Shown in pieces: positions 287 to 17,503 of a stretch of DNA of 64,000 nucleotides. The stretch covers positions 1 through 64,000 of the forward strand of contig CASDYG010000001.1 in the NCBI GenBank assembly GCA_949285555.1, read 5' to 3'. Position 1 is the stretch's first letter. Each line of letters starts with the position of its first letter. A program made the translations under genes and the position numbers. The notes under the pieces are model-generated. The model did no database searches, was not told where the DNA came from, and saw only the letters and a list, made by a program, of their open reading frames with translations. The DNA comes from an uncultured Eubacteriales bacterium (GTDB taxonomy: Bacteria > Bacillota > Clostridia > Peptostreptococcales > Anaerovoracaceae).

Positions 287-422
287 TTGCAATTATGTAT
301 GTAATTGTAGATTATATTTTTAATTATTATAGTATTCTACTATTTAATCTCAAATGCTCCTTATATCGTTGACACTAATATACTTTATTGTTATAATTTT
401 ATTAAATTAAATACTATATTTT

Positions 423-572
423 GAGTGTTTTTAACTTAATAGAGGAAGTCGGTCAAAGTCCGACACGGTACCGCCACTGTAGGTGAGGAATCTACTTCGA
501 TATACCACTGGCATGTATTGTTGCTGGGAAGGTGAAGTTAGGTGTTGATTCACGAGTCAGGAGACTTACTCA
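423..572 (+). ncRNA. cobalamin (B12) riboswitch
   Basis: The conserved core blocks of the cobalamin riboswitch occur in order. An AAGTCGGTCAAAGTCCGAC hairpin is followed by the B12-box-like CCGCCACTGTAGG, then CCACTGG, then CTGGGAAGG, and finally CGAGTCAGGAGAC. Order and spacing fit RF00174. A terminator-like hairpin follows at 614-646, so cobalamin should switch the long downstream operon off. The outer limits of the aptamer are approximate. Confidence 0.93.
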
Positions 573-613
573 AAATTTTTAGAGCGGAGTTCTCTTTTTG
601 TATATGCAATTGT

Positions 614-646
614 AAAACGGACTGTATTAGCAGTTCGTTTTTTTTA
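614..646 (+). terminator. riboswitch expression-platform terminator
   Basis: AAAACGGACTG (614-624) pairs with CAGTTCGTTTT (631-641), with one G-U pair and a 6-base loop, and runs into T638-645. It lies about 40 bases after the aptamer and is the natural OFF hairpin. A weaker AGAG/CTCT hairpin with a T-run sits between them at about 581-599. Confidence 0.75.
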
Positions 647-670
647 TTACTTTATCTGTTTGCATACATG

Positions 671-688
671 AACTCCCATTTTGGAGTT
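671..688 (+). promoter_or_regulatory. hairpin covering a Shine-Dalgarno sequence
   Basis: AACTCC (671-676) pairs perfectly with GGAGTT (683-688). The GGAG inside the 3' arm is the only good ribosome binding site for the ATG at 697, about 10 bases away. This could limit translation of the first gene. The regulatory role is inferred. Confidence 0.45.
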
Positions 689-696
689 GATTATTT

Positions 697-1062
697 ATGA
701 AATTATATTGTAAAGAAATAAAAATTTTAAAAAAACAGCTTTTATATTATTTGCTAAGTACAGCTGGTGATCCAAGCAAAGTTAAGCTTGGTATGCATAA
801 TAAAAGTAGTCTCATTTACAGAAACTTTTCTTTTGATTCTGTAAGTGGTCGTCTCATTTATGATTCTTTTACAGATGAAGAGCTTTTATATTTACTAAGA
901 CAGGTAGCATATAAGTTAGGTCATTCTCCAGCACAAGGAGAGATATTATGGGTTTTTAGATTATATATTAAACATCGCTTTAAAAAGTGGCCATATGCTT
1001 TAAAAAAAGCTGGTCTTTCTAAAAGCTGCGGCCCAGGAGGAGCTAGATTTGAAAAAAGTTGA
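697..1062 (+). CDS. small protein with a homing-endonuclease-associated (HNH) repeat-like region
   Basis: A 121-residue protein and the first gene after the B12 riboswitch. Residues about 58-107 contain a small helical module (DEELLYLLRQVAYKLGHSP then FKKWPYALKKAGL) that resembles the repeat found beside HNH homing endonucleases (PF18780-like) and in small Clostridial DNA-binding-like proteins. No nuclease motif is visible. The only ribosome binding site, GGAG at 683-686, lies in a hairpin. It may be a regulator or a decayed endonuclease fragment. The family assignment is from memory of its pattern and the function is unknown. Confidence 0.6.
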   Translation: MKLYCKEIKILKKQLLYYLLSTAGDPSKVKLGMHNKSSLIYRNFSFDSVSGRLIYDSFTDEELLYLLRQVAYKLGHSPAQGEILWVFRLYIKHRFKKWPYALKKAGLSKSCGPGGARFEKS

Positions 1063-1129
1063 TCTATCATTATTAGCATATTTTGAAGGTAAAGGAATAT
1101 ATGCATATGAGCTATCAAGGTGTATTTAA
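1049..1129 (+). CDS. possible 26-residue peptide ahead of ecfT
   Basis: TTG at 1049 follows a perfect AGGAGG (1035-1040) by 8 bases and opens a short reading frame (MKKVDLSLLAYFEGKG...) that ends at 1129, after overlapping the ecfT start. It could be a coupling peptide, where ribosomes reach the ecfT start by reinitiation, or a chance frame. No homologue is recognised. Confidence 0.25.
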   Translation: MKKVDLSLLAYFEGKGIYAYELSRCI

Positions 1130-2030
1130 TATATCTAATAAATCAAGAACAGGAGAATTCTATACCTATCATCCCATAGTGAATCTTGTGTATTTTTCAT
1201 TAGTAATTGGAATTACAATGTTTTCATTACATATTATCATGCTTGGGATTACTCTCCTAAACGCTGGAATATATTCATACTTATTATCTGGTAGAGAAAG
1301 TATAAAGAGTAATTTACAGCTTGCGACCATTGTAATTCTTTTAATTACTACCATAAATATGTTTTTTACCCATAACGGTGAGACAGTATTGTTTTATGTA
1401 AATGGCAACAGGATTACTTTAGAAGCAATATTTTTTGGAATAATATCTGCTTGCATGATATTGGCAGTGATAATATGGTTTACGAATTTCAATAGGATTA
1501 TTTCAAATGATAAGCTCATATATATTTTTGGAAGTATCTTACCAGTATTAGGACTTCTTATATCAATGGTATTAAGATTTATTCCACTATTAAAGCATAG
1601 ATATGATGAAATATCAATGGGCCAGAAATGTATGGGCAATGGTTACAGTAAAAATATAATAAAAAACATAAGACTTATTGTAAAGAAAATATCTATTTTG
1701 ATAGCCTGGTCACTGGAAAACTCAATTGAGCTTGCAGATTCAATGGCAGCCAGAGGATATGGCTTAAAGGGGAGAACTTCATTTAGTATATTTAAATGGA
1801 CAATGCGAGATACCATATTGCTATTATATTTTACCGTCCTAGGCATTATTGTAATTACAGGTAACATCATTGGATATACCAAGATGTACTTTTATCCTAA
1901 ATTGATTATTCCTGTGATAGATGTTAAAAGCATTGTTATATATATTGCTTTTATATTATTAGCTACAGGACCAATTATTTTAGATTTTCTAGGAGAATAT
2001 AAATGGAGAAAATTAGATTTGAAAATTTAA
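1101..2030 (+). CDS. ecfT: energy-coupling factor transporter transmembrane protein EcfT
   Basis: Integral membrane T component of an ECF-type vitamin transporter, which couples the two ATPases to the substrate-binding S protein. About 310 residues with five to six hydrophobic segments. The cytoplasmic coupling helix region holds the typical SMAARGYG motif (A-R-G of the EcfT signature) in the segment ELADSMAARGYGLKGRTS. ATG 1101 follows AAAGGA at 1091-1096 with only 4 bases, and ATG 1107 is an alternative. The gene overlaps the ATPase gene by 28 bases. The B12 riboswitch upstream points to cobalamin or a precursor as substrate. Confidence 0.9.
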   Translation: MHMSYQGVFNISNKSRTGEFYTYHPIVNLVYFSLVIGITMFSLHIIMLGITLLNAGIYSYLLSGRESIKSNLQLATIVILLITTINMFFTHNGETVLFYVNGNRITLEAIFFGIISACMILAVIIWFTNFNRIISNDKLIYIFGSILPVLGLLISMVLRFIPLLKHRYDEISMGQKCMGNGYSKNIIKNIRLIVKKISILIAWSLENSIELADSMAARGYGLKGRTSFSIFKWTMRDTILLLYFTVLGIIVITGNIIGYTKMYFYPKLIIPVIDVKSIVIYIAFILLATGPIILDFLGEYKWRKLDLKI

Positions 2031-3730
2031 GTTTTTCTTATCCATTATCCGAATATTTAGCTCTTGATAATATATCACTTGAAGTTAATCCATCTGAGTT
2101 TATTGTGATATGTGGAAGGTCAGGATGTGGCAAAAGTACACTTTTAAGACATTTCAAAAAATCTCTAACTCCATATGGTGTTCAAAAAGGTAAGGTGTTA
2201 TATGGGGATGTTGATATAAAAAATTTAAATGATAAGGTAGCAGCTGAAAAAATTGGATTTGTACAGCAAGATCCAGATAATCAGATAGTTACAGATAAGG
2301 TGTGGCATGAACTGGCATTTGGCCTTGAAAATATGGGTATTCCTAATCAACTTATGAAGTTAAGAGTAGCAGAGATGGCAAGCTATCTGGGGATACAGGA
2401 TTGGTATCATAGGGATGTAAGTACATTGTCAGGAGGACAAAAACAACTGTTAAATTTGGCTTCGATCTTGGTAATGCAACCAGAGATCTTGGTATTAGAT
2501 GAACCGGTATCGCAGTTAGATCCAATCGCAGCATCCGATTTTATCCAAACATTATATAAGATAAACAGAGATTTGGGAATAACAGTAGTAATTAGTGAGC
2601 ATAGGTTGGAAGATATTTTTCCTATAGCAGATAAGGTTATAGTAATGGATGAGGGGAAAATAATTTTCTCAGGTCCTCCTAAGCGTGTTGGCTACTTGTT
2701 GATGAAGCGTTCAAATATGGGAGATATAGTACATCCAATGTTTTACGCTATTCCATCAGTTATGCGAATATTTCAGCCTTTTTGTGATTATGATGAAGAT
2801 ATTCCAATTACTATACGAGAAGGACGTCTAAAATTACAGGGAATAGTTAGTAACAATAAAGCTGTAAGCGAGATAAATCCAAAAATTATTAAAAAGGAGA
2901 ATAGAAAAAGTTCAGATAGTAACGACAAGACAGATGAAATAATCAAGGTTGATAATGTATGGTTTAGATATAGTCAAGATAGTGATTTTGTCTTACGAGG
3001 ATTAGATTTTAATGCAAAGCGGGGAGAAATTCACTGTATGCTAGGAGGTAATGGCAGTGGCAAAAGCACTACTCTTAAAGCTATTTGCGGTATTGTAAAA
3101 CCTCAACGAGGTACAATAAGGGTTGAAGATAAAATCATATCCAAGAAGAACGAGAAGGGTATTTTTAATGAATTTTTAGCGATGGTGCCACAAAATCCAC
3201 AGGCGATTTTTACTGAAATTACATGTGAAGAAGAATTATATGAGTCAGTTTCAGAATCAAGGATAGATGATGCACTAAAAATAAAAAGAGTAGAAGATAT
3301 TTTGAAAATGATGGAGCTATCACATCTGCGAAAAGCAAACCCTTACGATTTATCAGGAGGAGAACAGCAAAGACTGGCTATAGGTAAAATACTCTTATTA
3401 AATCCTAAAATATTATTGCTTGATGAACCAACTAAGGGACTTGACCCTTTCTTTAAGATAAAGCTTGCAGAAATTCTAAATAGTTTGAAAAGACAGGGAG
3501 TAACAATATTTATGGTAAGCCATGATATTGAATTTTGTGCCAGCTATGCCGATAGATGCTATATGTTTTTTGATGGTGAGATAGTATCATCCGGAGCGCC
3601 AAATGATTTTTTTGCAGGAAATAATTTTTATACTACGGTTGCTAATAGAATTACAAGAGAAGTCGGCAACAATTTTATAACGGTTGATGATGTAGTTAAT
3701 TATATAGGAACATTTAATCATGAGAAATAG
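2003..3730 (+). CDS. fused double ECF ATPase (EcfA-EcfA')
   Basis: A 575-residue protein with two complete ABC ATPase domains in tandem, which power the ECF transporter. Domain 1 has Walker A GRSGCGKST at residues 38-46, a QQDPDNQ Q-loop, signature LSGGQ and Walker B ILVLDEP. Domain 2 has GGNGSGKST near 348, a VPQNPQ Q-loop, LSGGEQ and LLLDEP followed by D-loop and H-loop (VSHDIE). All catalytic motifs look intact in both halves. Most ECF systems use two separate ATPase genes. The fusion is a known arrangement in Clostridia. The gene overlaps ecfT upstream and the S-component gene downstream. Confidence 0.93.
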   Translation: MEKIRFENLSFSYPLSEYLALDNISLEVNPSEFIVICGRSGCGKSTLLRHFKKSLTPYGVQKGKVLYGDVDIKNLNDKVAAEKIGFVQQDPDNQIVTDKVWHELAFGLENMGIPNQLMKLRVAEMASYLGIQDWYHRDVSTLSGGQKQLLNLASILVMQPEILVLDEPVSQLDPIAASDFIQTLYKINRDLGITVVISEHRLEDIFPIADKVIVMDEGKIIFSGPPKRVGYLLMKRSNMGDIVHPMFYAIPSVMRIFQPFCDYDEDIPITIREGRLKLQGIVSNNKAVSEINPKIIKKENRKSSDSNDKTDEIIKVDNVWFRYSQDSDFVLRGLDFNAKRGEIHCMLGGNGSGKSTTLKAICGIVKPQRGTIRVEDKIISKKNEKGIFNEFLAMVPQNPQAIFTEITCEEELYESVSESRIDDALKIKRVEDILKMMELSHLRKANPYDLSGGEQQRLAIGKILLLNPKILLLDEPTKGLDPFFKIKLAEILNSLKRQGVTIFMVSHDIEFCASYADRCYMFFDGEIVSSGAPNDFFAGNNFYTTVANRITREVGNNFITVDDVVNYIGTFNHEK

Positions 3731-4649
3731 TTGTAGCCTAGCAAGAAATAAATTTGAAAAAGAAAGATTTAAAGTAGCTATATTTATGATTATTGTAGCT
3801 ATTCCATCTGTCATAGTAGCATCAATCTTTATACTACCAAGCAGCTGGTACATGCTGGTAAGCTTTTTGGTTTTGATTCTTATTATGGCACCATTTTTCA
3901 TGATATTTGAACATAGAAAACCAAAGGCACGAGAACTTGTATTATTAGCTACAATGAGTGCGATTACAGCAGGTTCACATTTATTTTTGCATATTGTGTT
4001 TCCTGTACAGATTGGATCAGCGTTAGTGATCATAGCTGGTGCATCACTTGGAGCTGAATCAGGATTTTTGATAGGTGCAATTGCCAGATTTGTTTGTAAT
4101 TTTTACATGGGACATGGACCGTGGACACCTTGGCAAATGCTTTGCTGGGGTATTTTAGGTTTTCTTGCTGGCTTGCTCTTTAACAAAGGAGAAGTAAAGC
4201 AACTAAATAAAAATAGCTTTTACGATGTCTTGTCGCCATTAATTGTAGTGATATTTTCTTTAGGAGCAGCATATCTAAGTTTATTAATTTGGCCTGGTAA
4301 AGATCAAGTTGTTGGATGGAGAATATATGCATTTGGTGCTTTTGGAATGTTAATAGCAATGTTGTTTAGAAGACGTAAGCTAAGTATCAATAGTATTTCT
4401 TTGTCACTGTTCACTTTCTTTTCCATTCTTATCATATATGGAGGAATAATGAACATGAGCACATACATAATTTCTTTAACTGCTAACACTACGGGAATAA
4501 GCTTTGATGCAATACGAGCATTATTTATTACAGGTCTACCATATGACTTAATGCATGCTGGAACTGCTACATTATGTATCTTCTTCATTGGACCAAATAT
4601 TATAAAAAAATTGGAGCGTATAAAAATAAAGTATGGAATATATAAATGA
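3720..4649 (+). CDS. ECF transporter S component, probably for cobalamin (CblT-like)
   Basis: A 309-residue membrane protein with about eight hydrophobic segments. It has the S-component features HIVFPVQIGSALVIIAGASLGAESGFLIGAIARFVCN and GPWTPWQMLCWGILGFLAG (the conserved G-P-W-T-P-W-Q-M run after the fourth helix), seen in S proteins that sit next to B12 riboswitches. It would bind the vitamin in the membrane. The start overlaps the ATPase gene by 11 bases, so it is translationally coupled. Cobalamin is inferred from the riboswitch; a precursor such as dimethylbenzimidazole or cobinamide cannot be excluded. Confidence 0.85.
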   Translation: MRNSCSLARNKFEKERFKVAIFMIIVAIPSVIVASIFILPSSWYMLVSFLVLILIMAPFFMIFEHRKPKARELVLLATMSAITAGSHLFLHIVFPVQIGSALVIIAGASLGAESGFLIGAIARFVCNFYMGHGPWTPWQMLCWGILGFLAGLLFNKGEVKQLNKNSFYDVLSPLIVVIFSLGAAYLSLLIWPGKDQVVGWRIYAFGAFGMLIAMLFRRRKLSINSISLSLFTFFSILIIYGGIMNMSTYIISLTANTTGISFDAIRALFITGLPYDLMHAGTATLCIFFIGPNIIKKLERIKIKYGIYK

Positions 4650-5190
4650 TCAGCAATCCACTAAGGACTTTGAAAAGAAAATAAGAAGAAAAAAATTTAA
4701 AAAATTTTGGTGTGCAATTATTGCTATAATAGTGCTTTTTGCCATAATAGTAACTACACGAATTGATGGAGTAAATTATGCATTTAAAAAGGTTACAGGG
4801 CAAAATAATGTAACTATAGAAATACGATGTGATGAGCTTTCAAATGATATGAGCAAATTAACAAAGCCAGAATTAAAAAAATATATACCAAAAGATGGCA
4901 TCATTTTACATAAAACAAAGACAGATATTAAAAGGAAGGATACAGTTTTCAATGTGCTAGATAGGGTGTGTAGAGAAAAAAACATTCAGATTGAATACAC
5001 ATATACACCACTTTATAAAGCGTATTACATAAAAGGTATTAACTATTTGTATGAATTTCATGGTGGCAGACGAAGTGGATGGCAATATACCGTAAATGGA
5101 GAAAAACCAAAGTATGGGTGTTCCCTATATGACTTAAAGGGTGGAGAGAATATAGTCTGGTATTATACGGTAGATTATCTTAAAAATTAG
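4633..5190 (+). CDS. membrane-anchored DUF4430 (transcobalamin-like C-terminal) protein
   Basis: 185 residues. A charged start, one membrane segment at about residues 27-44, then an extracellular DUF4430 domain at about 95-183. The signature is YLYEFHGG..SGWQYTVNGE followed by G-C-S-L-Y-D-L-K-G-G-E and WYYTVDY. DUF4430 (PF14478) is related to the beta domain at the C-terminus of intrinsic factor and transcobalamin, which caps bound B12. The gene overlaps the EcfS gene by 17 bases. A role as the membrane-proximal partner that hands cobalamin to EcfS is inferred. Confidence 0.85.
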   Translation: MEYINDQQSTKDFEKKIRRKKFKKFWCAIIAIIVLFAIIVTTRIDGVNYAFKKVTGQNNVTIEIRCDELSNDMSKLTKPELKKYIPKDGIILHKTKTDIKRKDTVFNVLDRVCREKNIQIEYTYTPLYKAYYIKGINYLYEFHGGRRSGWQYTVNGEKPKYGCSLYDLKGGENIVWYYTVDYLKN

Positions 5191-5233
5191 GAAAAGAACT
5201 AATTATATAGACATATGAGAGGAGTTAAATTTA

Positions 5234-6181
5234 ATGGAGAATAATAAAAAGCTGTGGCATATAGTAGATGAAATCAAAACTGAGGTAGGAAAGGTAATAA
5301 AGGGAAAGAATGATATTATTGATAAAACCTTAATGGCTATCATAGCAGGCGGACATATTCTATTAGAGGATATACCTGGTGTGGGAAAAACCACCTTGGC
5401 ACTTGCTTTTAGTAAGTCTATGGGTTTGAAATTTAACAGGGTACAGTTCACACCAGATGTAGTTCCTTCAGATATAACAGGATTTACAATGTATAACAAG
5501 CAAACTGGTAAATTCGAGTACAAAGATGGTGCAATTATGTGTAATTTTTTCTTAGCTGATGAAATAAACAGAACTTCCAGCAAAACACAGTCCGCACTAT
5601 TGGAAGCTATGCAGGAAGGCAAGGTTACAGTTGATGGACAGACGCATTATCTCAATATGCCTTTTATAGTAATGGCTACTCAGAACCCTGTAGGAACAGC
5701 TGGTACTCAAATGTTACCAGAGGCTCAGTTAGATAGATTTATGGTAAAACTATCTATAGGTTATCCAGATATTGCCACACAAGTGGATATATTAAAGGAT
5801 AGATCGAAGGAAGACCCGTTATCATATGTTCAGGAAGTTGCTTCATCAGAATTAGTTGTGGATCTATGCAATCAGGTGAAAGAGATATTTGTTGATGAAA
5901 AAATTTATACATATATAGCTACATTAGTAGAAGCAACTCGTAATGATGAGTATATAAGGCTAGGAGTAAGTCCAAGAGGTGCTATAGCAATTTTTAATAT
6001 GGCTAAGGCTGCAGCATATATGCAAAATAGAGATTTTGTTACACCAGAGGATGTTGATGACATATTTGTAGATGTATGCAGACATCGAATAATTTTGTTT
6101 CCAAAGGCTAAAATGGCTAATGTAAGTGTGGAAGACATATTGAAAAATATTGTAAGTAAAAATGTTGCAAACAAGCTTTAG
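5234..6181 (+). CDS. MoxR-family AAA+ ATPase
   Basis: 315 residues. Walker A EDIPGVGKT at residues 45-53, Walker B FFLADEINR near 109-117, sensor and arginine-finger region FIVMATQNPVGTAGTQMLPEAQLDRF, and a C-terminal lid. MoxR ATPases act as chaperones for maturation or activation of partner complexes and are typically followed by DUF58 and transglutaminase-like genes, exactly as here. Only 43 bases separate it from the DUF4430 gene, so it belongs to the riboswitch-controlled operon. Its client could be the surface complex encoded here, which is inference. Confidence 0.93.
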   Translation: MENNKKLWHIVDEIKTEVGKVIKGKNDIIDKTLMAIIAGGHILLEDIPGVGKTTLALAFSKSMGLKFNRVQFTPDVVPSDITGFTMYNKQTGKFEYKDGAIMCNFFLADEINRTSSKTQSALLEAMQEGKVTVDGQTHYLNMPFIVMATQNPVGTAGTQMLPEAQLDRFMVKLSIGYPDIATQVDILKDRSKEDPLSYVQEVASSELVVDLCNQVKEIFVDEKIYTYIATLVEATRNDEYIRLGVSPRGAIAIFNMAKAAAYMQNRDFVTPEDVDDIFVDVCRHRIILFPKAKMANVSVEDILKNIVSKNVANKL

Positions 6182-6229
6182 AAACATTTAAATCTAAAAT
6201 GAACTATTGAAACGTGACGGTGGAATATT

Positions 6230-7354
6230 TTGAAAAGAGAAAAGTTAATATTTTTGCTGATATTTGTTATTAGCTTAATTGCCTATGTTTTTACTGATAT
6301 AGCATTTGCTGCACCTATTCTCATGGGAATGTCAATATACGCTATCTTTGCATTGCTTCTGATTTTCATACAAGGACATGGCTTAAAAGTTGCCATAGAA
6401 GGCATAAGAAAAGCACAGAAGGGTGAGCATATAAGACATGATATTATATGTACGAATGAAGGGCTTTTCCCAATAATAAGTGGCAAAATAATTATCGAGA
6501 TTGAAAACAGATTGACTGGAGAAAAAGAAGTTATAAATGAAACAATTTCGATTTTTTCAAAGCAGAAAATAGTTATAGGTTTTGAAACATTTTCTAAATA
6601 TTGTGGTGCAATAAATGTAAAAATAAAAGAAGCTATAGTTCATGACCCCCTAATGCTTTTTCAAAAAAAAGTATATTTTAATGTGGCAGATTTTGACTTT
6701 TTCGTAATGCCCAATATACATGAGCTTCACCTAGATAAAGAAGATTTTGATAAATATGACATGGAAAGTTTTAAATACTCCGAAACTATGAGAGGGGATG
6801 ATTTAAGCGAAACTTTTGGTATCAAAGAATATGGAATAGGTGACAGTATAAAAAGTATACATTGGAAATTATCAGGTAAGCTTGGTAAGGTGATGGTTCG
6901 TATTCCAAGTTTACCCATTGAAAATAGCTTAATGATTATTATGGATAATAGATTAGAAAATGCTCTTAAATATGAAATGAATGAAGAAGATAGAACAATA
7001 AATTCTAAAAAAATTGATTCTACGATAGAAAGGTTTATTGCTTTATCTAACACACTGTGCCATGAAGGAATGGTACATTTTATAGGGTGGTATGACAAAA
7101 GACAAAGAGATTTTAAATCTATTAAGATAATAAGCGAAGAAGATATATATAAGGTTATTCCTGACTTAATATCATCCCCTTTTTATAGAGATAATATGAA
7201 TCCTATTGATATGTTTTTAGAAGCAGATGTACAGCATGATTTTGCATCATATATTTATGTCACAGATAGGGAAGATGATTTTGATGAAATAGAAAGGCTT
7301 AGAGAGTATGGAGATGTCAAGCTATATGGGCCAAGCGAATTGGAAAACAAATAG
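6230..7354 (+). CDS. DUF58 domain protein (MoxR partner)
   Basis: 374 residues. Two hydrophobic segments at the N-terminus (residues about 4-45), a beta-rich middle, and the DUF58 hallmark YGIGDSIKSIHWKLSGK followed by VMVR near residues 200-225, with a vWA-like C-terminus. The start is TTG with GGTGGA just upstream. It lies between the MoxR ATPase and the transglutaminase-like gene, the classic trio, and overlaps the latter's longest frame. It probably assembles with MoxR at the membrane. No substrate is known. Confidence 0.88.
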   Translation: MKREKLIFLLIFVISLIAYVFTDIAFAAPILMGMSIYAIFALLLIFIQGHGLKVAIEGIRKAQKGEHIRHDIICTNEGLFPIISGKIIIEIENRLTGEKEVINETISIFSKQKIVIGFETFSKYCGAINVKIKEAIVHDPLMLFQKKVYFNVADFDFFVMPNIHELHLDKEDFDKYDMESFKYSETMRGDDLSETFGIKEYGIGDSIKSIHWKLSGKLGKVMVRIPSLPIENSLMIIMDNRLENALKYEMNEEDRTINSKKIDSTIERFIALSNTLCHEGMVHFIGWYDKRQRDFKSIKIISEEDIYKVIPDLISSPFYRDNMNPIDMFLEADVQHDFASYIYVTDREDDFDEIERLREYGDVKLYGPSELENK

Positions 7355-9389: not shown

Positions 9390-9391
9390 AA

Positions 9392-10360: not shown

Positions 10361-10362
10361 TA

Positions 10363-11691
10363 ATGAAGTTAATAAGCAAACTCAAAAATAATAAATTTGG
10401 TATATTTGCAATTTTAATTTTGATTGCGATTATATTTTTTTCATCTATCTATGTATTTTCATGCAATCAGGATCACGGTAAAAATCCAATAGATGGCATT
10501 GCTGAGGAAAGATCACAAATTCTTCTGACTGGTAACGGATATTCCATGAACTATGAACAGGAACAGGAATATTTAAAAGAAGAAGAAAAGCGGCATGAGA
10601 TTATTCAAAATAACCAAGAACAAATAGCCAGAGAGACTGGAAATACTCATGAGATAACCGAATCTATTCAGGAAAAGAAAGAAAATGAAGAAAAAAAGGA
10701 AAGTATTATTGAGGATAAAGGAGGAAGTGTAGATAATAATTCATCCTCAGATGGTGATGGAAATAAAGGTAGCGGTAATGGTGGCAAACCCTCTGAAGGA
10801 AGTGATTCTGACAAAGACGAAAATGGAGGTAGCGGAGGCAAGGGTCCTGGGAATGGAAACGATGGAGATAACACAGGTGGAAATATTGATGAAAGCAAGC
10901 TTCCTACTATAATTTGCAGTCTGGAAAATGGACAAGAAATAAGTGGAAATTTCCTTGGCTTTACCGTAAAAGGTATAAGTTATAAAAAGGAAGTTATTAG
11001 TTCATTTAATATGAATGTACTGGCTAATGGTAATAGGCTAGGCAGTACTGGTGAAAATAGTGATGGCTCATATAGCTTTAAGACTAGTAAATATTTACAA
11101 GATGGCTTAAATGAAATAGCAGTTACTGTAACGGACAAAGATGGTAATACTGCTACAAAAAAATATCTCATAAATGTAGATATAAATGGAGAACGACCAA
11201 GAACTGGTACAGTTAGGGTCATACTGGACGCACGAACCGTAGGAAAAGGAATATTAATGGATTTAAATGTTCCTTTGTATGATCAAGATAATGCATACAT
11301 GGTGGTAGATCGTGCTTTTAAGCAGGCTGGAATTACGCCAGTTTGGCAAAATTCTACAAATGAATTTGGAGGTGTTTATCTGGCTAGTGTTATATATCCA
11401 GGCATATTTGCGAATTGGACGTATGATCTAATACCAGCGCCATTAAAAGAAAAGTTAGATGATGAGGGGGTAACGGAGCAAGGAATTCCTTCTGACATAA
11501 ATAAGATTGGTGAAAAAGATATATATCAATGGTCCGGATGGTGTTATGACATTGATGGTACCCCAGGAGACTTTACAGAAAATGGCATGGCAGTGGAGCA
11601 GGTGGATGATAGAGATGTTATCACTGTAGCCTTTACATTACACATGGTTTATGAATTCAACGGTACATGGTTCTCAAGGGGTGAATGGTAA
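10363..11691 (+). CDS. secreted or lipid-anchored protein with Ig-like and DUF4430 domains
   Basis: 442 residues. Hydrophobic N-terminus (residues about 12-34) ending in VFSC, which may be a variant lipobox. A charged Glu/Lys-rich helix follows, then a Gly/Ser/Asp-rich linker at about 120-180, an Ig-like beta sandwich at about 187-277, and a DUF4430 domain at about 285-440 (VPLYDQDNAYMVVDRAF ... WSGWCYDIDGTP ... ITVAFTLHMVYEF). The flexible linker would span the cell wall. It is coupled by 2 bases to the upstream alpha/alpha lipoprotein. A cobalamin-capping role is inferred from domain relationship and operon. Confidence 0.82.
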   Translation: MKLISKLKNNKFGIFAILILIAIIFFSSIYVFSCNQDHGKNPIDGIAEERSQILLTGNGYSMNYEQEQEYLKEEEKRHEIIQNNQEQIARETGNTHEITESIQEKKENEEKKESIIEDKGGSVDNNSSSDGDGNKGSGNGGKPSEGSDSDKDENGGSGGKGPGNGNDGDNTGGNIDESKLPTIICSLENGQEISGNFLGFTVKGISYKKEVISSFNMNVLANGNRLGSTGENSDGSYSFKTSKYLQDGLNEIAVTVTDKDGNTATKKYLINVDINGERPRTGTVRVILDARTVGKGILMDLNVPLYDQDNAYMVVDRAFKQAGITPVWQNSTNEFGGVYLASVIYPGIFANWTYDLIPAPLKEKLDDEGVTEQGIPSDINKIGEKDIYQWSGWCYDIDGTPGDFTENGMAVEQVDDRDVITVAFTLHMVYEFNGTWFSRGEW

Positions 11692-11723
11692 TATGCTTAT
11701 AGCCGTCATGAACGGTAATATAT

Positions 11724-11753
11724 AAGGAGGTTGATATGAAGGAGGTAAAAATG
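11724..11753 (+). promoter_or_regulatory. two consecutive perfect ribosome binding sites with in-frame starts
   Basis: AAGGAGG at 11724-11730 serves ATG 11736, and AAGGAGGT at 11739-11746 serves ATG 11751. Both starts are in the same frame, so the protein could be made with or without five extra N-terminal residues. Both versions keep the signal peptide. Confidence 0.6.
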
Positions 11754-14700
11754 AAGAGCGGATTAAGAAAGTTACTTTCTGTTGCTATCATTTTCACGTG
11801 GGTTGTGAGCATGCTCTCGACAACGGTATATGGATTTACACGTATAGAAGATGATAGGAATAATGATATTGTTTGGTATAATTTTGCCAATAATCAGGAA
11901 AACAACAGAGTAACGGAATATCCTGGCCCTACTGATGATAAAACAGCATCATTAAAGTGGGCGAAAAAATATGGTACGGGTTGGGCAGCTTCTTGCACTC
12001 CACCTATTATCATTAATAACAAGCTGTATGTAGGAATGGCTAAAAAGGTCATGGAGTTAGACAAGGATACGGGTGAGATTTTAAGAGAAAGTGATGAAAT
12101 GGTATCCAATGTGGGCTATGCGATGAATCCAATTCTATATGCTGACGGAATGCTATTTGTACAAGTCGGTAATGGAATCATACAAGCAATAGATCTACAG
12201 ACTTTAAAGTGTGTATGGCATTCTGAAAAAATTGGAGGCCAAACAGTTTCCAATATAAGCTACAATAAGGTTAATGGTAAAGGATACATATATACCGGTA
12301 CATGGACAGGTGAAAATAGAGATGGATACTTCATTGCAGTTACCACTGATAATGACGAGAAGTATAAATTAGATGAAGGAAAAGGAAAGGGTGGCTGGAC
12401 TAAGGCACCAGCATGGAAATTCCAACCTTCAGGATCTTCTAAGGATAAGGTTAAGGATTTAAAATATGACCCAGACCTTAATGCAACACTTGAGCAGGAA
12501 AATAATGTTGCAAAAAGAGGATTCTATTGGGCAGGTGCATATACAACAGAAAAATATGTAGCTGTCGGAACAGATGATGGAACAAATGAAGGCGATTATA
12601 CTGCAAATGGTATATTCTATACGCTAAATCCTACAACGGGTGAAATTATAGATAAGGTAGAAAACATAAAAGGCGATATTAGAAGTACAGTTGTTTACGA
12701 CAATGGACAGTTATTTTTCTGTACTAAAGGCGGTTTAGTTTGTAAGGTGGATGTAGATAGTGAAGGGCATTTAAGTAACTATACACAGCTGCAGCTTACA
12801 GATCCAAAAAATGGAAATAAAAATCGAATGATAACTGCGGCACCTGTTATATATGGAAACAAAATATATATAGGAGCAAGTGGAGCTGGTGGACAGTTTG
12901 ATAAGGACGGAGGACATGTCTTTGCAGTAGTAGATAAGAGCAATGATCAGCTTAAACTATTATATGACATCCCTATTGCCGGATATCCACAGGCAGCTAC
13001 TTTACTATCAACTGCTTATGCTGGTGAGGACTATGATAATGATGGACAGCCAGATGGTAGAGTATACATTTACTTTACATACAATGCTCCTCCAGGAGGC
13101 ATATATTATATTTATGATACACCTGAGGCAAAAGAACCAATTACCAAAGGAAAGGAACTCTTTATTCCAGAGAAGAATATGCAGCAGTACTGTATTAGTA
13201 CAATAATAGCTGATCTTCAAGGAAATCTTTATTATAAGAATGATAGCTGTTACCTTATGTCCATAGAAACCAATGCTGCATTTATTACAAATGCAGAGGT
13301 AAAGACGGACAAGGGTACAGACGCTGTATGGGACAAAAGCTTTGCCCAAAACTCCACCGAATATAATTTGAAAGTAGGAGAGGATGTTAGCTATGTTACA
13401 CTTAAGCTACAAAAGCCAGATCCTACTGGAATCAAGGTTAATGATAAGCCTTATGAAGAAAATATGAAGGTGCAGTTAAATGAAACAGGTGAGACTGAAA
13501 TAAGGTTAGAAGCGAAGGCTGGTGAGCAGACTAAAACATATACTTTAAAGGTGAAGAAAATAGGAGCAGATGCAAGCTTGGCATCATTACAAGCAAGTAC
13601 CAGCAATCGTGAGGGAGCAGATATTTTAAGCATGGAGCCGGAATTTTCAGCAGAAAAACTGAAATATAAGGTGGATATTACAGATGTTGATATAGATGAA
13701 GTTGGAATAATAAGAGTTTGGCCAAAGCCTTCTGCCGAGAATTCTTCGGTAAAGGTGGAGGGAACTGATAATGTTGAATCAGTAGTAGATTTATTTAAGC
13801 GTAAGGGATATTTTGGTGTATATTTTGATGATCCTAATAAGCCTGCTTCAATAAATGTTACTGTAACATCTGAGAATGGAGCAAAAACTCAGACATATAA
13901 GCTTACATTTGCTAAGAAAGTAAAGGTAAATTCTGTAAGCATTGAAAATAAACAGGCTGCATTAGATATGGCAGATAGCCCATTAAAGCTTAAGGCTAAT
14001 ATTAATCCTGATAATGCTACAGATAAAACGGGTACATGGTACATCATGGATACAGAAAAACACGATAATGAAGATGATCTACCAGCTACAATAACACAAG
14101 ATGGCGTAGTTACACCAGCAAAGAAAGGTAATGTGAGAATAACATTCATAACTAATGATGGTTCAAAAACAGACCAGTTTGATATGAATATTACTGATCT
14201 AGGTTTAGATGTAGCAGATGAAGCTAAGAAGCTGAATGTAAGTACGCTTAAAGATAAGGCAAATATTGATGCTGTAAAAGGTAAGTATGAAAAACTAACC
14301 AAGAAACAGAAGGAAAGAGCCGATAAGCTAGGATATAGTACAGCTATAAGCAAGGCAGAAGCTGAATACAATAAGTTGGCTGAAGCTGCAGCTCAGGAGG
14401 AGAGAGATAAAGCAGCTGCAAAAGCTGTTGAGAACAAGATTGATGCAATAGGTGCCCTTGAAGATATTGCTTTAGATAAGATGAATGAAGTGGCTGAAGC
14501 GCGTACTGCATATGATGCACTTACTGAAACACAAAAATCATATGTACCAGCTGAAAAACTAGATAAGCTTGTAAAAGCAGAAAATAAGATTAAAGAGTTG
14601 AAGCTGGACAAGGCAAAAAAGGATGCAAAAGAAGCAGTAAATTCATATAAGGATTTAAACAATTATCGTCCAGATGAACAGAGGGTAATAAAAGGCATCA

Positions 14701-15557
14701 TAGCCAATACCTTAAAGTTGATAGATGTAGCTAAAGATGAAGATGAAATTCTAGATAGGGTGAAAAAAGCTAAAGCTGCTATGGATCAGGTTAAGACTGA
14801 TGCAGAACTAACCTTAGAGGAAAAAGCGAAAGAAAGAGCAGCCCAAGTAGACGCAGTAATCCAAGATATAGGTGAGGTAACATTTAGTGTTGATAGCCGT
14901 GATAAAATTCTAAAAGCAAGAGATGCTTATAATAATTTAGATGATTCTTCAAAGAAAAAAGTAAAGAAACTAGCTGAGCTAGAAGCTGCCGAAAAGAAGT
15001 ATGCAGAACTTGTAAAGAATGCTGAGCTAAAGACATTATCAGATGAAGCTACAAAGTTAGAAGTAGTGGGCAAGTTTATGGATAGTGCAAAACTGGTAGC
15101 TAATGAACTCAGTGCGGATGATGCAAATAAATTAAAAGATGCATTTAAACTTGAAAATCTTGACATCGAAAAGTATTTTAGTGTAGATGCAAGAATTGAG
15201 GGCGGATATGAAGAAGCATTAAAGGTTGTATTTAATGTAGGTGATGAATACGAAGGTAAGAAAGTTATTGTAAAGGCTATTTTGACTGATGGTAGTATAG
15301 GTACATATACTGCATATGTAAATGAAGGTAAAGCCTCCATATATGTGGATTCCTTAGCTAAATACATGATTGGCATTGAAAAAGAAAAAATAAATCAGCC
15401 TGGTGGTTCTGACAGTAGCTCTGTATCAGGAGGTCATAATAAAACTACTAGGGCAGCTAAGACAGGAGATGCATCAGATCCCGAATTATGGATTATAACA
15501 TCTTTATTATCTTTAGGATTGTCGATAATTCTATTAAGAAAAAGGAATAACCAATAA
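11736..15557 (+). CDS. giant surface protein: beta-propeller, cadherin-like, Ig-like and helical repeats with sortase tail
   Basis: 1273 residues (1268 from ATG 11751). Signal peptide (about 6-35), then PQQ/YVTN-type beta-propeller blades to about residue 510 (KWAKKYGTGWAASCTPP, NNKLYVGMAKKVMELDKDTG, VYDNGQLFFCTKGGLV). A cadherin-like sandwich follows at about 515-610, a second sandwich to about 725, a BIg2-like domain at about 730-815, helical repeats at about 820-1130 (DALTETQKSYVPAEKLDKL type), and a beta domain. The tail is AAKTGD at about 1238, a hydrophobic stretch and RKRNNQ, a variant LPXTG sorting signal. It probably is wall-anchored. In this operon the propeller may be a corrinoid receptor, by analogy with BtuG; that is inference. 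Confidence 0.85.
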   Translation: MKEVKMKSGLRKLLSVAIIFTWVVSMLSTTVYGFTRIEDDRNNDIVWYNFANNQENNRVTEYPGPTDDKTASLKWAKKYGTGWAASCTPPIIINNKLYVGMAKKVMELDKDTGEILRESDEMVSNVGYAMNPILYADGMLFVQVGNGIIQAIDLQTLKCVWHSEKIGGQTVSNISYNKVNGKGYIYTGTWTGENRDGYFIAVTTDNDEKYKLDEGKGKGGWTKAPAWKFQPSGSSKDKVKDLKYDPDLNATLEQENNVAKRGFYWAGAYTTEKYVAVGTDDGTNEGDYTANGIFYTLNPTTGEIIDKVENIKGDIRSTVVYDNGQLFFCTKGGLVCKVDVDSEGHLSNYTQLQLTDPKNGNKNRMITAAPVIYGNKIYIGASGAGGQFDKDGGHVFAVVDKSNDQLKLLYDIPIAGYPQAATLLSTAYAGEDYDNDGQPDGRVYIYFTYNAPPGGIYYIYDTPEAKEPITKGKELFIPEKNMQQYCISTIIADLQGNLYYKNDSCYLMSIETNAAFITNAEVKTDKGTDAVWDKSFAQNSTEYNLKVGEDVSYVTLKLQKPDPTGIKVNDKPYEENMKVQLNETGETEIRLEAKAGEQTKTYTLKVKKIGADASLASLQASTSNREGADILSMEPEFSAEKLKYKVDITDVDIDEVGIIRVWPKPSAENSSVKVEGTDNVESVVDLFKRKGYFGVYFDDPNKPASINVTVTSENGAKTQTYKLTFAKKVKVNSVSIENKQAALDMADSPLKLKANINPDNATDKTGTWYIMDTEKHDNEDDLPATITQDGVVTPAKKGNVRITFITNDGSKTDQFDMNITDLGLDVADEAKKLNVSTLKDKANIDAVKGKYEKLTKKQKERADKLGYSTAISKAEAEYNKLAEAAAQEERDKAAAKAVENKIDAIGALEDIALDKMNEVAEARTAYDALTETQKSYVPAEKLDKLVKAENKIKELKLDKAKKDAKEAVNSYKDLNNYRPDEQRVIKGIIANTLKLIDVAKDEDEILDRVKKAKAAMDQVKTDAELTLEEKAKERAAQVDAVIQDIGEVTFSVDSRDKILKARDAYNNLDDSSKKKVKKLAELEAAEKKYAELVKNAELKTLSDEATKLEVVGKFMDSAKLVANELSADDANKLKDAFKLENLDIEKYFSVDARIEGGYEEALKVVFNVGDEYEGKKVIVKAILTDGSIGTYTAYVNEGKASIYVDSLAKYMIGIEKEKINQPGGSDSSSVSGGHNKTTRAAKTGDASDPELWIITSLLSLGLSIILLRKRNNQ

Positions 15558-15597
15558 GATTGGCAAAATCGGCAATATGTTTAAATAGGAGTATGTC

Positions 15598-17400
15598 ATG
15601 GAAATAAAATTAAAAACTAGACGCATTTTAGTATCCCTAATAACTCTTATAGTTTTATTTGCATTTAGTATTCCCAATATATCGGTAGTGTCTGCGGACA
15701 CTACCGATGCAGTGGATGATGGCATAGTCATCACTACAACGCTAGATGATAATATAACACAAAAAGGTTCTAAAAAAACTATCGATGTTATAGCAAGACA
15801 AAATGGAAATAAGATTGATTCAGAAGTTTATCTAAACAATGAAGAGGTGAAGATAAATTGGAGTGATTCCAATAAAGATAGCTATACTCTTAACTTTGTA
15901 AATGAAGGACCTAATGTTGTTAAAATTATAGGGAAAGCAGGAGATAAACAGAAAGAAATAATACGTAATGTAAATTATGTAAAAGCTCAGCCTGGTGAGA
16001 TAATAGGATATGCAACATTTTCATTGGAAGCGCTTACTATAGGTAGTGGCTATCTAATTGAGCCATTAAAGCTACCAATTTATGAAGGTGAAAATTCAGC
16101 ACAGATGCTTGTGAGATGGCTAGAGGATCATAAGTATTCATACCGTTATACTGGAGAAATAACAAAAAGCTTTTATCTTGCTACAATTGGTAATGGTGGA
16201 AAATGGAAGAATGGTTGTCAGGAAGCAAACACAAATCTTAGTGTTTTGCCAATTACCGTTGATAAAAATAATATACCAGCACCTTTATGGAAGCAGATGG
16301 AAGAAGATGATGTGTGGATTGAGGAAAATGGTAATGTGAAAGATGGAAAGGTAGTAGCATTGGGAGAATTTGATTATACTGGAAGTTCCGGCTGGATGTA
16401 CTCCGTAAATGATGTTTTCCCTAATGTAGGATTTGCTGATACTTTTTTAAGTGATGGAGATGTAGTTAGAGTACAGTTCACATTACATGGTCTTGGCGCT
16501 GATATTGGCGGAAGATATTCTATGGGAGGATCTGATACTACTGATTTTTATGATACTCCTAATAAAACACAGTTACTAAATGCCATTGCAGATGTCAATT
16601 CATCCGAAGATAAACAAAAATTGTTGTCAGATTCAGATGTAAAAGCTGCTTATGATCAAGCTATGACTTTGGGACGTACATTAGTAGAGCCACAAGAGAA
16701 AGTAGATGAAGCAACAAAACATCTCATTGAGGCAATAGGAGCGTACAAGGAAAAAATTAATTCTGCTAAAAGTGATGCTGCCAAAGTAGATGCACTCATT
16801 GATTCCATTGGAACAGTTGAGTATAATGATTCAAGCAAGAAAAGTATTAGTGCAGCACGAGCAGAATACGATAAGCTTAGCACAGAGGCAAAAGCTCTTG
16901 TAACTAAGTTAGATGTACTAATTAGTGCAGAAAAAAGATATGAAGAGCTTAAAGCTAAAGCAGAAGAAGGAAATAAGGAAAAGCCAACACCAGATGATGA
17001 AAAACCTGTACCAAAACCAAATCCAGAATCATCTGATGATATTAAAGCTGCCAAGGATGTAGATAAAATTATTGAAGATATAGGTGATATAAATAATATT
17101 ACATTAGATAGTATAGATAAGATTAACCAAGCTACAAAAGCTTATAATGCACTATCTGAATCACAGAAGAAATTAGTTAAAAATTTAGATAAGCTAAAAT
17201 TAGCAATAGAAAAGTATAATAAGCTAAAAAATGATAAAAATATTAACAAACATACCGATAAAAATACTTCTTCTGAGCTTATAAAGCTAAATGAAGTAGC
17301 CAATAATCCAAAGACGGGTGACAATGATCTGATATTTGTATGGCTAATGTTAATATGCACCTGCTCAGGTGTAATAGTTTATGGCAGAAAGCGAATATAA
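15598..17400 (+). CDS. cell-wall-anchored DUF4430 protein with helical repeats
   Basis: 600 residues. Signal peptide to about residue 37 (ISVVSADTTD), an Ig-like domain at about 40-135, a DUF4430 domain at about 140-300 (KLPIYEGENSAQMLVRWLED ... GSSGWMYSVNDVFPNVGFAD ... VRVQFTLHG), and a helical segment. Two repeats of the type KVDALIDSIGTV...AYNALSESQKKLV flank a Pro/Lys/Glu linker. The end is NPKTGD, a hydrophobic segment and GRKRI, a sortase signal with N in place of L. It is the last operon gene, 40 bases after the propeller protein, and a terminator follows. DNA copies of its 3' end recur at 21875 and 23222. Confidence 0.88.
   Translation: MEIKLKTRRILVSLITLIVLFAFSIPNISVVSADTTDAVDDGIVITTTLDDNITQKGSKKTIDVIARQNGNKIDSEVYLNNEEVKINWSDSNKDSYTLNFVNEGPNVVKIIGKAGDKQKEIIRNVNYVKAQPGEIIGYATFSLEALTIGSGYLIEPLKLPIYEGENSAQMLVRWLEDHKYSYRYTGEITKSFYLATIGNGGKWKNGCQEANTNLSVLPITVDKNNIPAPLWKQMEEDDVWIEENGNVKDGKVVALGEFDYTGSSGWMYSVNDVFPNVGFADTFLSDGDVVRVQFTLHGLGADIGGRYSMGGSDTTDFYDTPNKTQLLNAIADVNSSEDKQKLLSDSDVKAAYDQAMTLGRTLVEPQEKVDEATKHLIEAIGAYKEKINSAKSDAAKVDALIDSIGTVEYNDSSKKSISAARAEYDKLSTEAKALVTKLDVLISAEKRYEELKAKAEEGNKEKPTPDDEKPVPKPNPESSDDIKAAKDVDKIIEDIGDINNITLDSIDKINQATKAYNALSESQKKLVKNLDKLKLAIEKYNKLKNDKNINKHTDKNTSSELIKLNEVANNPKTGDNDLIFVWLMLICTCSGVIVYGRKRI
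15681..15708 (+). repeat. perfect 12-bp inverted repeat inside the coding region
   Basis: ATCGGTAGTGTC (15681-15692) and GACACTACCGAT (15697-15708) are exact reverse complements around loop TGCG. The hairpin encodes the signal-peptide cleavage region. In mRNA it would be very stable about 85 bases after the start codon, and might slow translation during export or block RNA decay. Confidence 0.8.
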
Positions 17401-17499
17401 GACTTGTTATGCTAATACTCAAAATAATACCTAAACAGCTTTCCATATGGAAGGCTGTTTTTTTCAAAATAAAAAACCATGGGAGACACACCATGGTTT
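17322..17499 (+). repeat. direct repeat copy 1 (gene tail plus terminators)
   Basis: About 178 bases covering the last codons of the DUF4430 wall protein, the trailer and both terminator hairpins. They recur almost unchanged at 23221-23397. The pair brackets the island at 17500-23220. Confidence 0.85.
17433..17465 (+). terminator. terminator of the B12 operon
   Basis: AAACAGCTTTCCATATGGAA folds with GGCTGTTT (one mismatch-tolerant stem centred on CCATATGG), followed by a T-run. It lies 33 bases after the last gene of the riboswitch operon. Confidence 0.85.
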
Positions 17500-17503
17500 T
17501 TAG
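17472..17503. terminator. bidirectional hairpin between the operon and the island
   Basis: AAAAACCATGG and CCATGGTTTTT flank a GAGACACA loop, with A-run and T-run on either side. It could stop transcription from either strand, including the minus-strand peptide cluster that ends just beyond it. Confidence 0.7.

Follow-up and report, generated by a model that had tools for sequence, protein, structure and literature searches.

A B12 riboswitch in the 64,000-nucleotide stretch of DNA analysed here (the window) is followed by a long series of same-strand genes for transporter, membrane and wall proteins, which raises the question of what such an operon does for the cell. An earlier note had read it as a complete cobalamin capture and uptake machine. 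Capture and uptake are supported by the kinship of the EcfS protein to 6FNP, the predicted fold of gene 9, the structural matches of a fused relative and the B12 riboswitches standing before each sub-block elsewhere, whereas the word "complete" is not. The operon is probably a split, surface-anchored transcobalamin-like system that catches corrinoid outside the membrane, joined to ECF-CbrT import and repressed by B12. This reading is based on computed evidence, namely operon anatomy, the riboswitch, EcfS kinship, the predicted alpha fold, beta kinship, and the recurrence of gene order and riboswitches.

Operon anatomy and the ECF transporter

The features of the operon are collected in Table 1. 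As the earlier note had claimed, a B12 riboswitch heads it, and its score exceeds the Rfam gathering score of 31.5. The same-strand run is also present, although it comprises 12 ORFs (697-17400) and not about 13. The spaces from gene 1 to gene 12 are 20, -28, -11, -17, 43, 48, -47, 2, 2, 44 and 40 bases (minus denotes overlap), which agrees with the tight spacing proposed before, the largest gap being 48 bases and four gene pairs overlapping by coordinates. A 20-kb scan of both strands found no terminator-like site between two operon genes. Plus-strand sites at 4127, 7056 and 17356 fall inside genes 4, 7 and 12, respectively. Another plus-strand site, at 671, has a 6-pair stem and lies 5′ of gene 1. 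The scan returned 13 terminator-like sites against 7.7 expected and 108 promoter-like sites against 104 expected, and with counts so near expectation single matches mostly mean little. The operon, as a riboswitch with 12 same-strand genes, is confirmed, and the 12 genes are presumably co-transcribed. Gene 1, which encodes an HNH-repeat protein of 121 aa, was missing from the earlier listing; it probably lies outside the uptake function.

Table 1. Position, strand and evidence for the control elements and genes of the operon.
Feature	Position	Strand	Evidence
Sigma-70-type promoter match	369..397	+	TTGACA-17-TATAAT, TG before second hexamer; 12/12 consensus matches
Cobalamin riboswitch aptamer	406..587	+	Rfam RF00174, 97.2 bits, E 5e-23
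Terminator-like hairpin, probable expression platform of the riboswitch	614..641	+	12-pair stem and T run
Gene 1, HNH_repeat protein	697..1062	+	PF18780 E 2.8e-11
Gene 2, EcfT (CbiQ family)	1083..2030	+	PF02361, 32.1 bits (cut-off 25)
Gene 3, fused EcfA-EcfA′ ATPases	2003..3730	+	Two ABC_tran stretches; TIGR04520 373.5 bits (cut-off 315)
Gene 4, EcfS, relative of CbrT	3720..4649	+	PF07155 51.3 bits (cut-off 26.7); PDB 6fnp_A
Gene 5, DUF4430 protein with N-terminal membrane anchor (by eye); transcobalamin beta-like domain 4939-5169	4633..5190	+	PF14478 E 1.1e-17
Gene 6, MoxR AAA ATPase	5234..6181	+	PF07726 E 5.8e-57
Gene 7, DUF58-like	6230..7354	+	PF01882 15.9 bits, under cut-off 23.4; same post-MoxR place in relatives
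Gene 8, membrane transglutaminase-like, Asp at catalytic Cys position	7308..9389	+	PF01841 E 2.7e-17; 8-protein alignment
Gene 9, lipoprotein, predicted transcobalamin alpha-like toroid (domain about 9527-10348)	9392..10360	+	AlphaFold2, Foldseek; lipobox by eye
Gene 10, anchored Big_13 and C-terminal DUF4430-like domain (about 11200-11682)	10363..11691	+	PF19077 E 1.3e-7
Gene 11, wall protein: PQQ-type beta-propeller, two cadherin-like stretches, Big_2, AAKTGD sorting-type tail	11736..15557	+	PF13360, PF12733, PF02368
Gene 12, wall DUF4430 protein, NPKTGD sorting-type tail	15598..17400	+	PF14478 E 2.5e-9
Hairpin with flanking A and T runs, 3′ of gene 12, possible convergent terminator	17472..17501	listed for minus strand	11-pair stem

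The ECF transporter, MoxR module and alpha/alpha protein named earlier all gave domain matches, and signals, as well as the sortase-type tails of the two giant proteins (genes 11 and 12), were read by eye. Genes 2 to 4 encode a full ECF set of EcfT, EcfA, EcfA′ and EcfS. By sequence, the only PDB match of EcfS at E<=1 was 6fnp_A (E 3.9e-5, residues 70-150), a 182-residue membrane chain that is taken to be the CbrT chain. According to the available text of PMC5997447, 6FNP is the ECF-CbrT of Lactobacillus delbrueckii. This supports the EcfS protein as a relative of the cobalamin S-component CbrT, and import of cobalamin by the ECF complex is putative.

Candidate alpha and beta halves

Gene 9 was modelled with AlphaFold2 (pLDDT 94.1), and the model was compared with PDB structures using Foldseek. 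Among 523 matches at E<=10, the six best were transcobalamin, and so were all five at E<=0.001 (TM 0.61-0.66 by query length). Two alpha/alpha folds other than transcobalamin came near in TM, 6shd_A (0.61) and 3k7x (0.60), and a search of viral structures gave nothing at E<=0.001. The protein is thus predicted to adopt the alpha-domain fold of transcobalamin. The alpha/alpha lipoprotein keeps the place in the B12 reading that had been proposed for it, and judging by the model it best fits the role of the first half, until now missing, in a transcobalamin-like pair.

Sequence models were less direct. The gathering cut-off (25 bits) of PF01122, the eukaryotic cobalamin-binding protein model, was reached in none of the scans made; the scores were 15.4 bits for the gene 9 domain, 22.6 for a homologue (L035) and 23.8 for the best among 99 genomes. 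PF01122 gave a signal in two of these 99 family genomes, both within an alpha-DUF4430 system and both below the cut-off, whereas in the genome of the window itself nothing matched it at E<=0.001. Transcobalamin was not found by PDB sequence searches with proteins 9 and 5 singly, nor with the first alignments as queries, because SLH anchors and linkers of low complexity in the related proteins dominated; later searches used trimmed alignments. By sequence, the alpha profile alone found squalene cyclases in the PDB and not transcobalamin, which counts against a pure sequence argument for transcobalamin.

The beta half is represented by DUF4430, which the available part of PMC4350170 links to the C-terminal domain of transcobalamin and intrinsic factor. 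The earlier note had stated this kinship, and it is borne out by that source and by weak profile matches: among six PDB sequences matched by the DUF4430 profile at E<=10, the four best were transcobalamin (best E 0.0069). The count of three DUF4430 proteins is accepted in part. Genes 5 and 12 exceed the Pfam DUF4430 cut-off, whereas the C-terminal piece of gene 10 has no Pfam match even at E<=10 and is assigned by alignment, with 28% over 160 aa to gene 12 (E 1e-8) and an SGW motif that is retained and aligned with the DUF4430 domains.

Both domains are also encoded together elsewhere. Among relatives, 24 ORFs contain both an alpha and a DUF4430 domain, and DUF4430 follows alpha, as in animals, in 22 of them. 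No such single chain occurs in the window, where the halves are separate genes, but another protein of the same genome (C13) carries alpha then beta in one chain. The 14 best PDB matches of a model of a relative's fused protein were all transcobalamin, haptocorrin or intrinsic factor (E 3.0e-9 to 5.4e-7, 385-449 columns). The placement of the domains in this model is unlike that in transcobalamin, and the whole-chain TM of the 14 best is 0.26-0.37 by query length.

Recurrence in relatives and rival explanations

The gene order was sought elsewhere in a survey of 80 loci from titled genome records, and the order alpha-DUF4430-EcfT recurs in 46 of them. Many relatives have EcfS fused to EcfA-A′, and 21 of the 80 loci have no ECF gene in view. 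Riboswitches were located with Rfam and a model, R1; a hand-written pattern was dropped after missing sites found by Rfam. With a training set of 15 sites taken from the same kinds of loci and only 9 base pairs in the model, R1 is a sequence-heavy detector; its three matches above E 1e-3 (L125, minus; L086 and L076, plus) were left out of the count. A same-strand B12 riboswitch lies upstream of alpha in 45 of the 80 loci, and all 53 matches at E<=1e-3 are on the strand of alpha. No match at this threshold was found in 33 loci, of which a contig end explains only some.

The pairing of DUF4430 with riboswitches was also counted in 21 genomes, including that of the window. A same-strand B12 riboswitch lies within 10 kb upstream of 21 of 35 DUF4430 places against 0.54 expected, where places sharing one operon are not independent, two of the 21 pairs include a partner that scores under its curated cut-off, and scoring in several genomes was confined to 74 riboswitch candidates. 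In total, curated cut-offs are not reached by 2 of the 35 DUF4430 places and 6 of the 98 riboswitch places. Control pairs for the same 35 places numbered four on the same strand downstream and one on the opposite strand. For 14 places the 10 kb upstream contain no riboswitch, and for 10 this holds out to 18 kb, a distance chosen to take in gene 12 of the window; the 10-kb figure is independent of that choice.

Gene 9 and its kin might instead be secreted prenyltransferase/terpene-cyclase-like enzymes with an incidental location in a B12 operon. Two plasmid-collection records name such kin "prenyltransferase/squalene oxidase repeat-containing protein" and "terpene cyclase/mutase family protein", squalene/prenyl cyclase models weakly match 38 and 35 of 42 family members (PF01122 matches two), and the top PDB sequence match of the family profile is squalene-hopene cyclase. 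This explanation is nevertheless very improbable. The cyclase match of gene 9 itself is under the curated cut-off (PF00432, 16.4 against 26.5 bits), the protein looks like an exported lipoprotein, and by eye it reads S-D-Y-I-S where cyclases carry the DXDD acid motif. The solved folds nearest to its model are transcobalamins, and a DUF4430 protein and EcfT adjoin alpha in the 46 loci mentioned above. The surface proteins could also bind another ligand, such as a glycan or peptide, or be adhesins that merely respond to B12 as a signal, since their size, sortase tails, and Ig-like and cadherin-like domains give the large ones the look of adhesins. The transcobalamin likeness of both halves, by fold or kinship, and the CbrT-type ECF transporter that often accompanies them leave little probability for this explanation too.

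It is somewhat less improbable, though still unlikely, that the B12 system consists of the ECF transporter and the small DUF4430 protein only, while MoxR-DUF58-transglutaminase, the propeller and the giants form a separate downstream unit for surface assembly. MoxR-DUF58-transglutaminase modules are widespread without B12 genes, and of the 19 places in the family with a gene-8 homologue, 7 have no alpha domain beside them, one of these being near DUF4430 and B12 riboswitches. By eye, the other 12 have an alpha domain within 5 kb on the same strand, and a gene-8-type transglutaminase is fused to an alpha domain in L135. A MoxR gene directly follows a B12 riboswitch in L092 (5729-5860, Gallibacter intestinalis, of which strain DSM 108706 carries the operon) and L137 (7182-7354), as does a propeller gene in L034 (9283-9458), and in a genome of the same genus MoxR-DUF58-transglutaminase-alpha stands behind its own B12 riboswitch. 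Because their own riboswitches precede them in relatives, the MoxR-DUF58-transglutaminase and propeller genes are taken to belong to the system. The propeller part and DUF4430 share a single ORF in 7 of 80 loci, L124 and L126 among them looking like near copies; only these seven were counted because the PQQ tag is loose, and four further co-tagged ORFs matched only other parts of gene 11.

The motif G-x-C-x-x-[FY]-A is taken here to mark the catalytic Cys of transglutaminases and proteases, and gene 8 lacks this Cys. Seven of eight B12-linked gene-8 homologues align and have D or S at the position, two of which (L039 and L090) have a Cys one residue earlier; the remaining one (L071) aligns poorly at the site and has no Cys there. 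The transglutaminase-like protein is therefore more likely a scaffold than a cross-linker.

Proposed mechanism and comparison with known systems

In the split transcobalamin-like system proposed here, low B12 would let the leader RNA read through its terminator, as expected from the riboswitch class. The alpha lipoprotein of gene 9 and the DUF4430 beta proteins would make up a split transcobalamin, with the products of genes 5 and 10 on the membrane and that of gene 12 on the wall. Wall-bound gene 12 and the propeller of gene 11 may be the outermost binders. The alpha and beta halves would close around a cobalamin, which would then pass to EcfS, the CbrT-like product of gene 4; import would be powered by EcfT and EcfA-A′ (genes 2-3). 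The most likely task of MoxR-DUF58 and the transglutaminase-like protein is to help assemble or display these surface proteins. We infer corrinoid binding, the pairing of the halves, the hand-over and the whole MoxR/transglutaminase role.

The animal carriers transcobalamin, intrinsic factor and haptocorrin combine an alpha toroid with the DUF4430 beta domain also seen here, and they are the best structural matches of both models. According to the accessible text of PMC5599065, the alpha and beta domains of human transcobalamin made apart assemble only when cobalamin is present; the halves in the window are separate anchored proteins. Compared with the animal carriers, the window has its beta half in three copies, identity is 12-16% in the listed matches, the PF01122 alpha model is not reached and corrinoid binding is putative. 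The ECF-CbrT of L. delbrueckii, which transports cobalamin and cobinamide, has a related S-component, EcfT and two EcfA domains; its CbrT is one of eight S-components predicted on one shared ECF module, in the order nrdJ-cbrS-cbrT-pduO (available text of PMC5997447). In contrast, the S-component of the window has its own EcfT/EcfA-A′ within a B12 operon that includes surface proteins.

BtuG and DUF4465 of Bacteroides are surface B12 binders, as proposed here, and BtuG is a seven-bladed beta-propeller that passes B12 to a transporter (accessible parts of PMC6143338, PMC13398666 and PMC10404256). They belong to an outer-membrane system with BtuB, and those parts of the three papers mention no DUF4430 or alpha toroid. 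The propeller of gene 11 is predicted, and no kinship to BtuG is claimed because gene 11 gives only a generic PQQ_2 match (E 1.7e-7).

A further precedent is an annotation in the available portion of PMC9963975, "Additional lipoprotein component of putative cobalamin ECF transporter", which places a lipoprotein beside a cobalamin ECF transporter, as here. A DUF4430 gene adjoining rtpR is noted there as well, whereas no function, alpha partner or surface operon is described in that portion. The rtpR gene encodes the B12-dependent ribonucleotide reductase. The full-text literature searched, in which subscription journals and preprints are thinly covered, gave no description of a bacterial transcobalamin-like system or of Gram-positive surface B12 capture ahead of an ECF importer.

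The operon is thus a concrete and widespread candidate for Gram-positive surface B12 capture, and it suggests what a pair of proteins that bear the annotations terpene cyclase and DUF4430 may do. It also bears on the origin of human B12 carriers. Lack of intrinsic factor leads to pernicious anaemia. If the proposed binding is true, it suggests that such bacteria would compete with intrinsic factor for B12 using a related fold. It can be hypothesized, with slightly less than even confidence, that the B12 carriers of animals have their bacterial counterpart, and perhaps their ancestor, in Clostridia and Paenibacillus. This would be a transcobalamin bound to the cell surface and in many cases split, with halves that are joined by corrinoid and dock on ECF-CbrT, and it would lie masked by the names "terpene cyclase" and "domain of unknown function".

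A large set of genes for anaerobic corrin synthesis is present elsewhere in the genome, and uptake may therefore be dispensable, which suggests scavenging rather than a strict need for B12. Own corrinoid synthesis by the cell is thus possible, an observation beyond what the window could reveal. One sortase gene was found in the genome.

Operon organization and the ECF transporter

One cobalamin riboswitch heads a run of same-strand genes extending from 697 to 17400. The earlier note had described about 13 genes behind a single riboswitch with small gaps or overlaps; ORF coordinates and the Rfam match uphold this layout (spacing of 2-48 bases or overlapping) and reduce the count to 12. In many relatives (loci L052, L053, L061 and others), EcfS and EcfA-EcfA' form a single chain of ~800-1050 aa, an ECF architecture that is not known to be common. 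Among PDB sequences, the only match of the window's EcfS at E<=1 was 6fnp chain A (E 3.9e-5). PDB 6FNP is ECF-CbrT, for which transport of cobalamin and cobinamide has been reported (PMC5997447).

Features of the B12 operon in the window
Feature	Position	Strand	Remark
5S rRNA and two tRNA genes	window start		
Sigma-70-type promoter match	369-397	+	12/12 consensus positions
Cobalamin riboswitch	406-587	+	Rfam
Terminator-like hairpin	614-641	+	3' of riboswitch
HNH-repeat protein	697-1062		gene 1
EcfT			gene 2
Fused EcfA-EcfA'			gene 3
EcfS			gene 4
Membrane DUF4430 protein			gene 5
MoxR			gene 6
DUF58-like			gene 7
Transglutaminase-like	7308-9389		gene 8
Alpha/alpha lipoprotein			gene 9
Big_13 and DUF4430-like			gene 10
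PQQ propeller/cadherin-like/Big_2 wall protein			gene 11
DUF4430 wall protein			gene 12

The ECF importer, the riboswitch and the animal B12 carriers are already known, and an existing annotation reads 'additional lipoprotein component of putative cobalamin ECF transporter' (PMC9963975). Full-text searches of the open literature found no description of a bacterial transcobalamin-like alpha/beta pair or of this surface operon, in agreement with the earlier note, to which no described Gram-positive surface B12 system of this composition was known.

A proposed transcobalamin-like carrier in two halves

In animal B12 carriers, DUF4430 forms the C-terminal domain (PMC4350170), which bears out the relationship proposed in the earlier note. 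A DUF4430 profile was built from 33 bacterial domains, including the window's three; transcobalamin accounted for the top four of its six matches to PDB sequences at E<=10, the best E being just 0.0069. Gene 9 reached the cut-off of no family in a Pfam scan. Its AlphaFold2 model, from a 42-sequence alignment (pLDDT 94.1, pTM 0.90), had transcobalamin as its six top matches among PDB structures, including the only five at E<=0.001. Because other alpha/alpha proteins reach a TM-score of 0.61, against 0.61-0.66 for these five, the modelled fold class is firm, and transcobalamin ranks as its nearest neighbour with good rather than overwhelming support.

In relatives, the gene 9-type alpha domain and DUF4430 share a single ORF in 24 cases, with DUF4430 3' of the alpha domain in 22. 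For the model of one fused stretch (L078:6870-8087, pLDDT 82.8), each of the 14 top matches was transcobalamin, haptocorrin or intrinsic factor (385-449 columns, E 3.0e-9 to 5.4e-7), although the model's domains are placed differently from those of the carriers (whole-chain TM 0.26-0.37 by query length). The window's genome itself has such a protein on contig C13: it is 2024 aa long and sortase-tailed, has DUF4430 after an alpha match, and lies downstream of a B12 riboswitch. Pfam's model for the alpha domain of the animal carriers, PF01122, matched in 2 of 99 family genomes, each time under the cut-off: in G077, where the match is the gene 9 orthologue, and in a 903-aa alpha and DUF4430 protein of G002 with a B12 riboswitch upstream and, by eye, an SLH-like tail. 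The same scan gave no match in the window's genome, and by the PF01122 cut-off and the single-chain feature the window proteins fall outside the transcobalamin family in the strict sense.

Gene 9 relatives are present in 71 of 148 family genomes. Instead of a lone alpha domain, some carry SLH domains (PF00395 in 10/20 members) or, at L051, a Cu_amine_oxidN1 domain. Two large plasmid-collection records of the human-associated Vescimonas fastidiosa (NZ_AP023416, NZ_AP023417) also carry relatives, labelled prenyltransferase/squalene oxidase repeat and terpene cyclase/mutase.

All four Pfam DUF4430 places in the window's genome, which has five cobalamin riboswitches in total, lie 2.7 to 15.8 kb downstream of one on the same strand. 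Across 21 genomes including this one, 21 of 35 DUF4430 places had a same-strand riboswitch <=10 kb upstream (0.54 expected), compared with four same-strand downstream pairs and one opposite-strand pair. From 261 candidate alpha loci in titled genome records, 218 were confirmed and the best 80 were compared; their titles include Clostridia and Paenibacillus. Of these best 80, 46 had the order alpha-DUF4430-EcfT, 71 had at least one DUF4430, 59 had at least one Ecf gene and 45 had a riboswitch 5' of alpha. All 53 riboswitch matches at E<=1e-3 shared alpha's strand, and 33 of the 80 loci had no match at that threshold.

The alpha and beta domains of human transcobalamin, when made separately, assemble only with cobalamin present, and the beta domain has been crystallised alone with cobalamin (PMC5599065). 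Because the human halves made apart join on cobalamin, a split carrier is, by analogy, a workable design. Corrinoid would be picked up by the wall- and membrane-anchored DUF4430 domains, the alpha lipoprotein would shut the clamp close to the membrane, and the ligand would then pass to EcfS. The system would work like transcobalamin feeding an ECF-CbrT importer, with corrinoid binding predicted.

Accessory genes of the operon

Gallibacter intestinalis DSM 108706 (L092) and G130 (L034) have the large operon with its gene order unchanged, whereas L052, L071 and L090 have it in rearranged form, which answers the earlier suggestion to search for this order elsewhere. A second B12 riboswitch stands immediately 5' of MoxR in L092, and one stands immediately 5' of the propeller gene in L034. 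In the same-genus genome G136, MoxR-DUF58-transglutaminase-alpha follow one B12 riboswitch, and a BLAST match to genes 10 and 12 follows a separate one. Gene 8 homologues (E<=1e-10) occupy 19 places in 17 of 148 family genomes; 12 of the 19 places lie (by eye) <=5 kb from a same-strand alpha domain. G040 has the order DUF4430-MoxR-DUF58-transglutaminase/alpha-propeller, with transglutaminase and alpha as a single 971-aa protein. In 7 of the best 80 of 218 loci, one ORF combines DUF4430 with the propeller portion of gene 11. Owing to this recurrent order, the separate riboswitches and the fusions, the MoxR, DUF58, transglutaminase-like and propeller genes look like members of the B12 regulon.

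Gene 8 has Asp at the catalytic Cys position of the transglutaminase fold, as placed by the catalytic motif. In an eight-protein alignment, the seven homologues that align there have D or S, two of them with Cys one residue earlier, and the eighth has no Cys at the catalytic place. Cross-linking by this protein is therefore unlikely, and it is apparently a conserved pseudo-enzyme.

HNH-repeat (homing-endonuclease-associated) proteins repeatedly adjoin B12 operons: in the window, L038 (two), L041 and 8 of the 80 loci (L060, L065, L075, L081, L100, L115, L128, L131). They are the first gene 3' of the riboswitch in L060 and L128. Repeated insertion and a regulator are both possible.

Corrinoid synthesis and other B12 loci

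Of the corrin pathway proteins searched for, one region of the window's genome matched CbiL, H, F, G, D, J, ET, C, A, P, B and CobD, as well as an adenosyltransferase and a protein resembling sirohydrochlorin chelatase, with some of these matches under NCBIfam cut-offs; CobS matched elsewhere. CbiM and CbiQ lie downstream of a B12 riboswitch; by eye, ORFs between and after them resemble CbiN and CbiO. The genome also encodes two B12-dependent enzymes, lysine 5,6-aminomutase and ornithine 4,5-aminomutase. From its gene content, the source organism looks like a corrinoid maker that scavenges too.

The synthesis cluster (L132 and L134, G000:C2:37001-70000) is large, of the anaerobic type, and adjoins haem genes; all five cobalamin riboswitches of the genome lie elsewhere. 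A strong riboswitch (108.9 bits) at L012 18019-18211, minus strand (G000:C7:84019-84211), has no evident B12 gene downstream and is possibly an orphan; the next sizeable same-strand gene, PcrA-like by eye (a helicase), lies ~400 bases on, past a terminator-like hairpin also seen by eye. A third B12-riboswitch locus, L011 196-3866, encodes a DUF4430 protein of 1137 aa that is sortase-tailed; genes for ornithine aminomutase lie further 3'.
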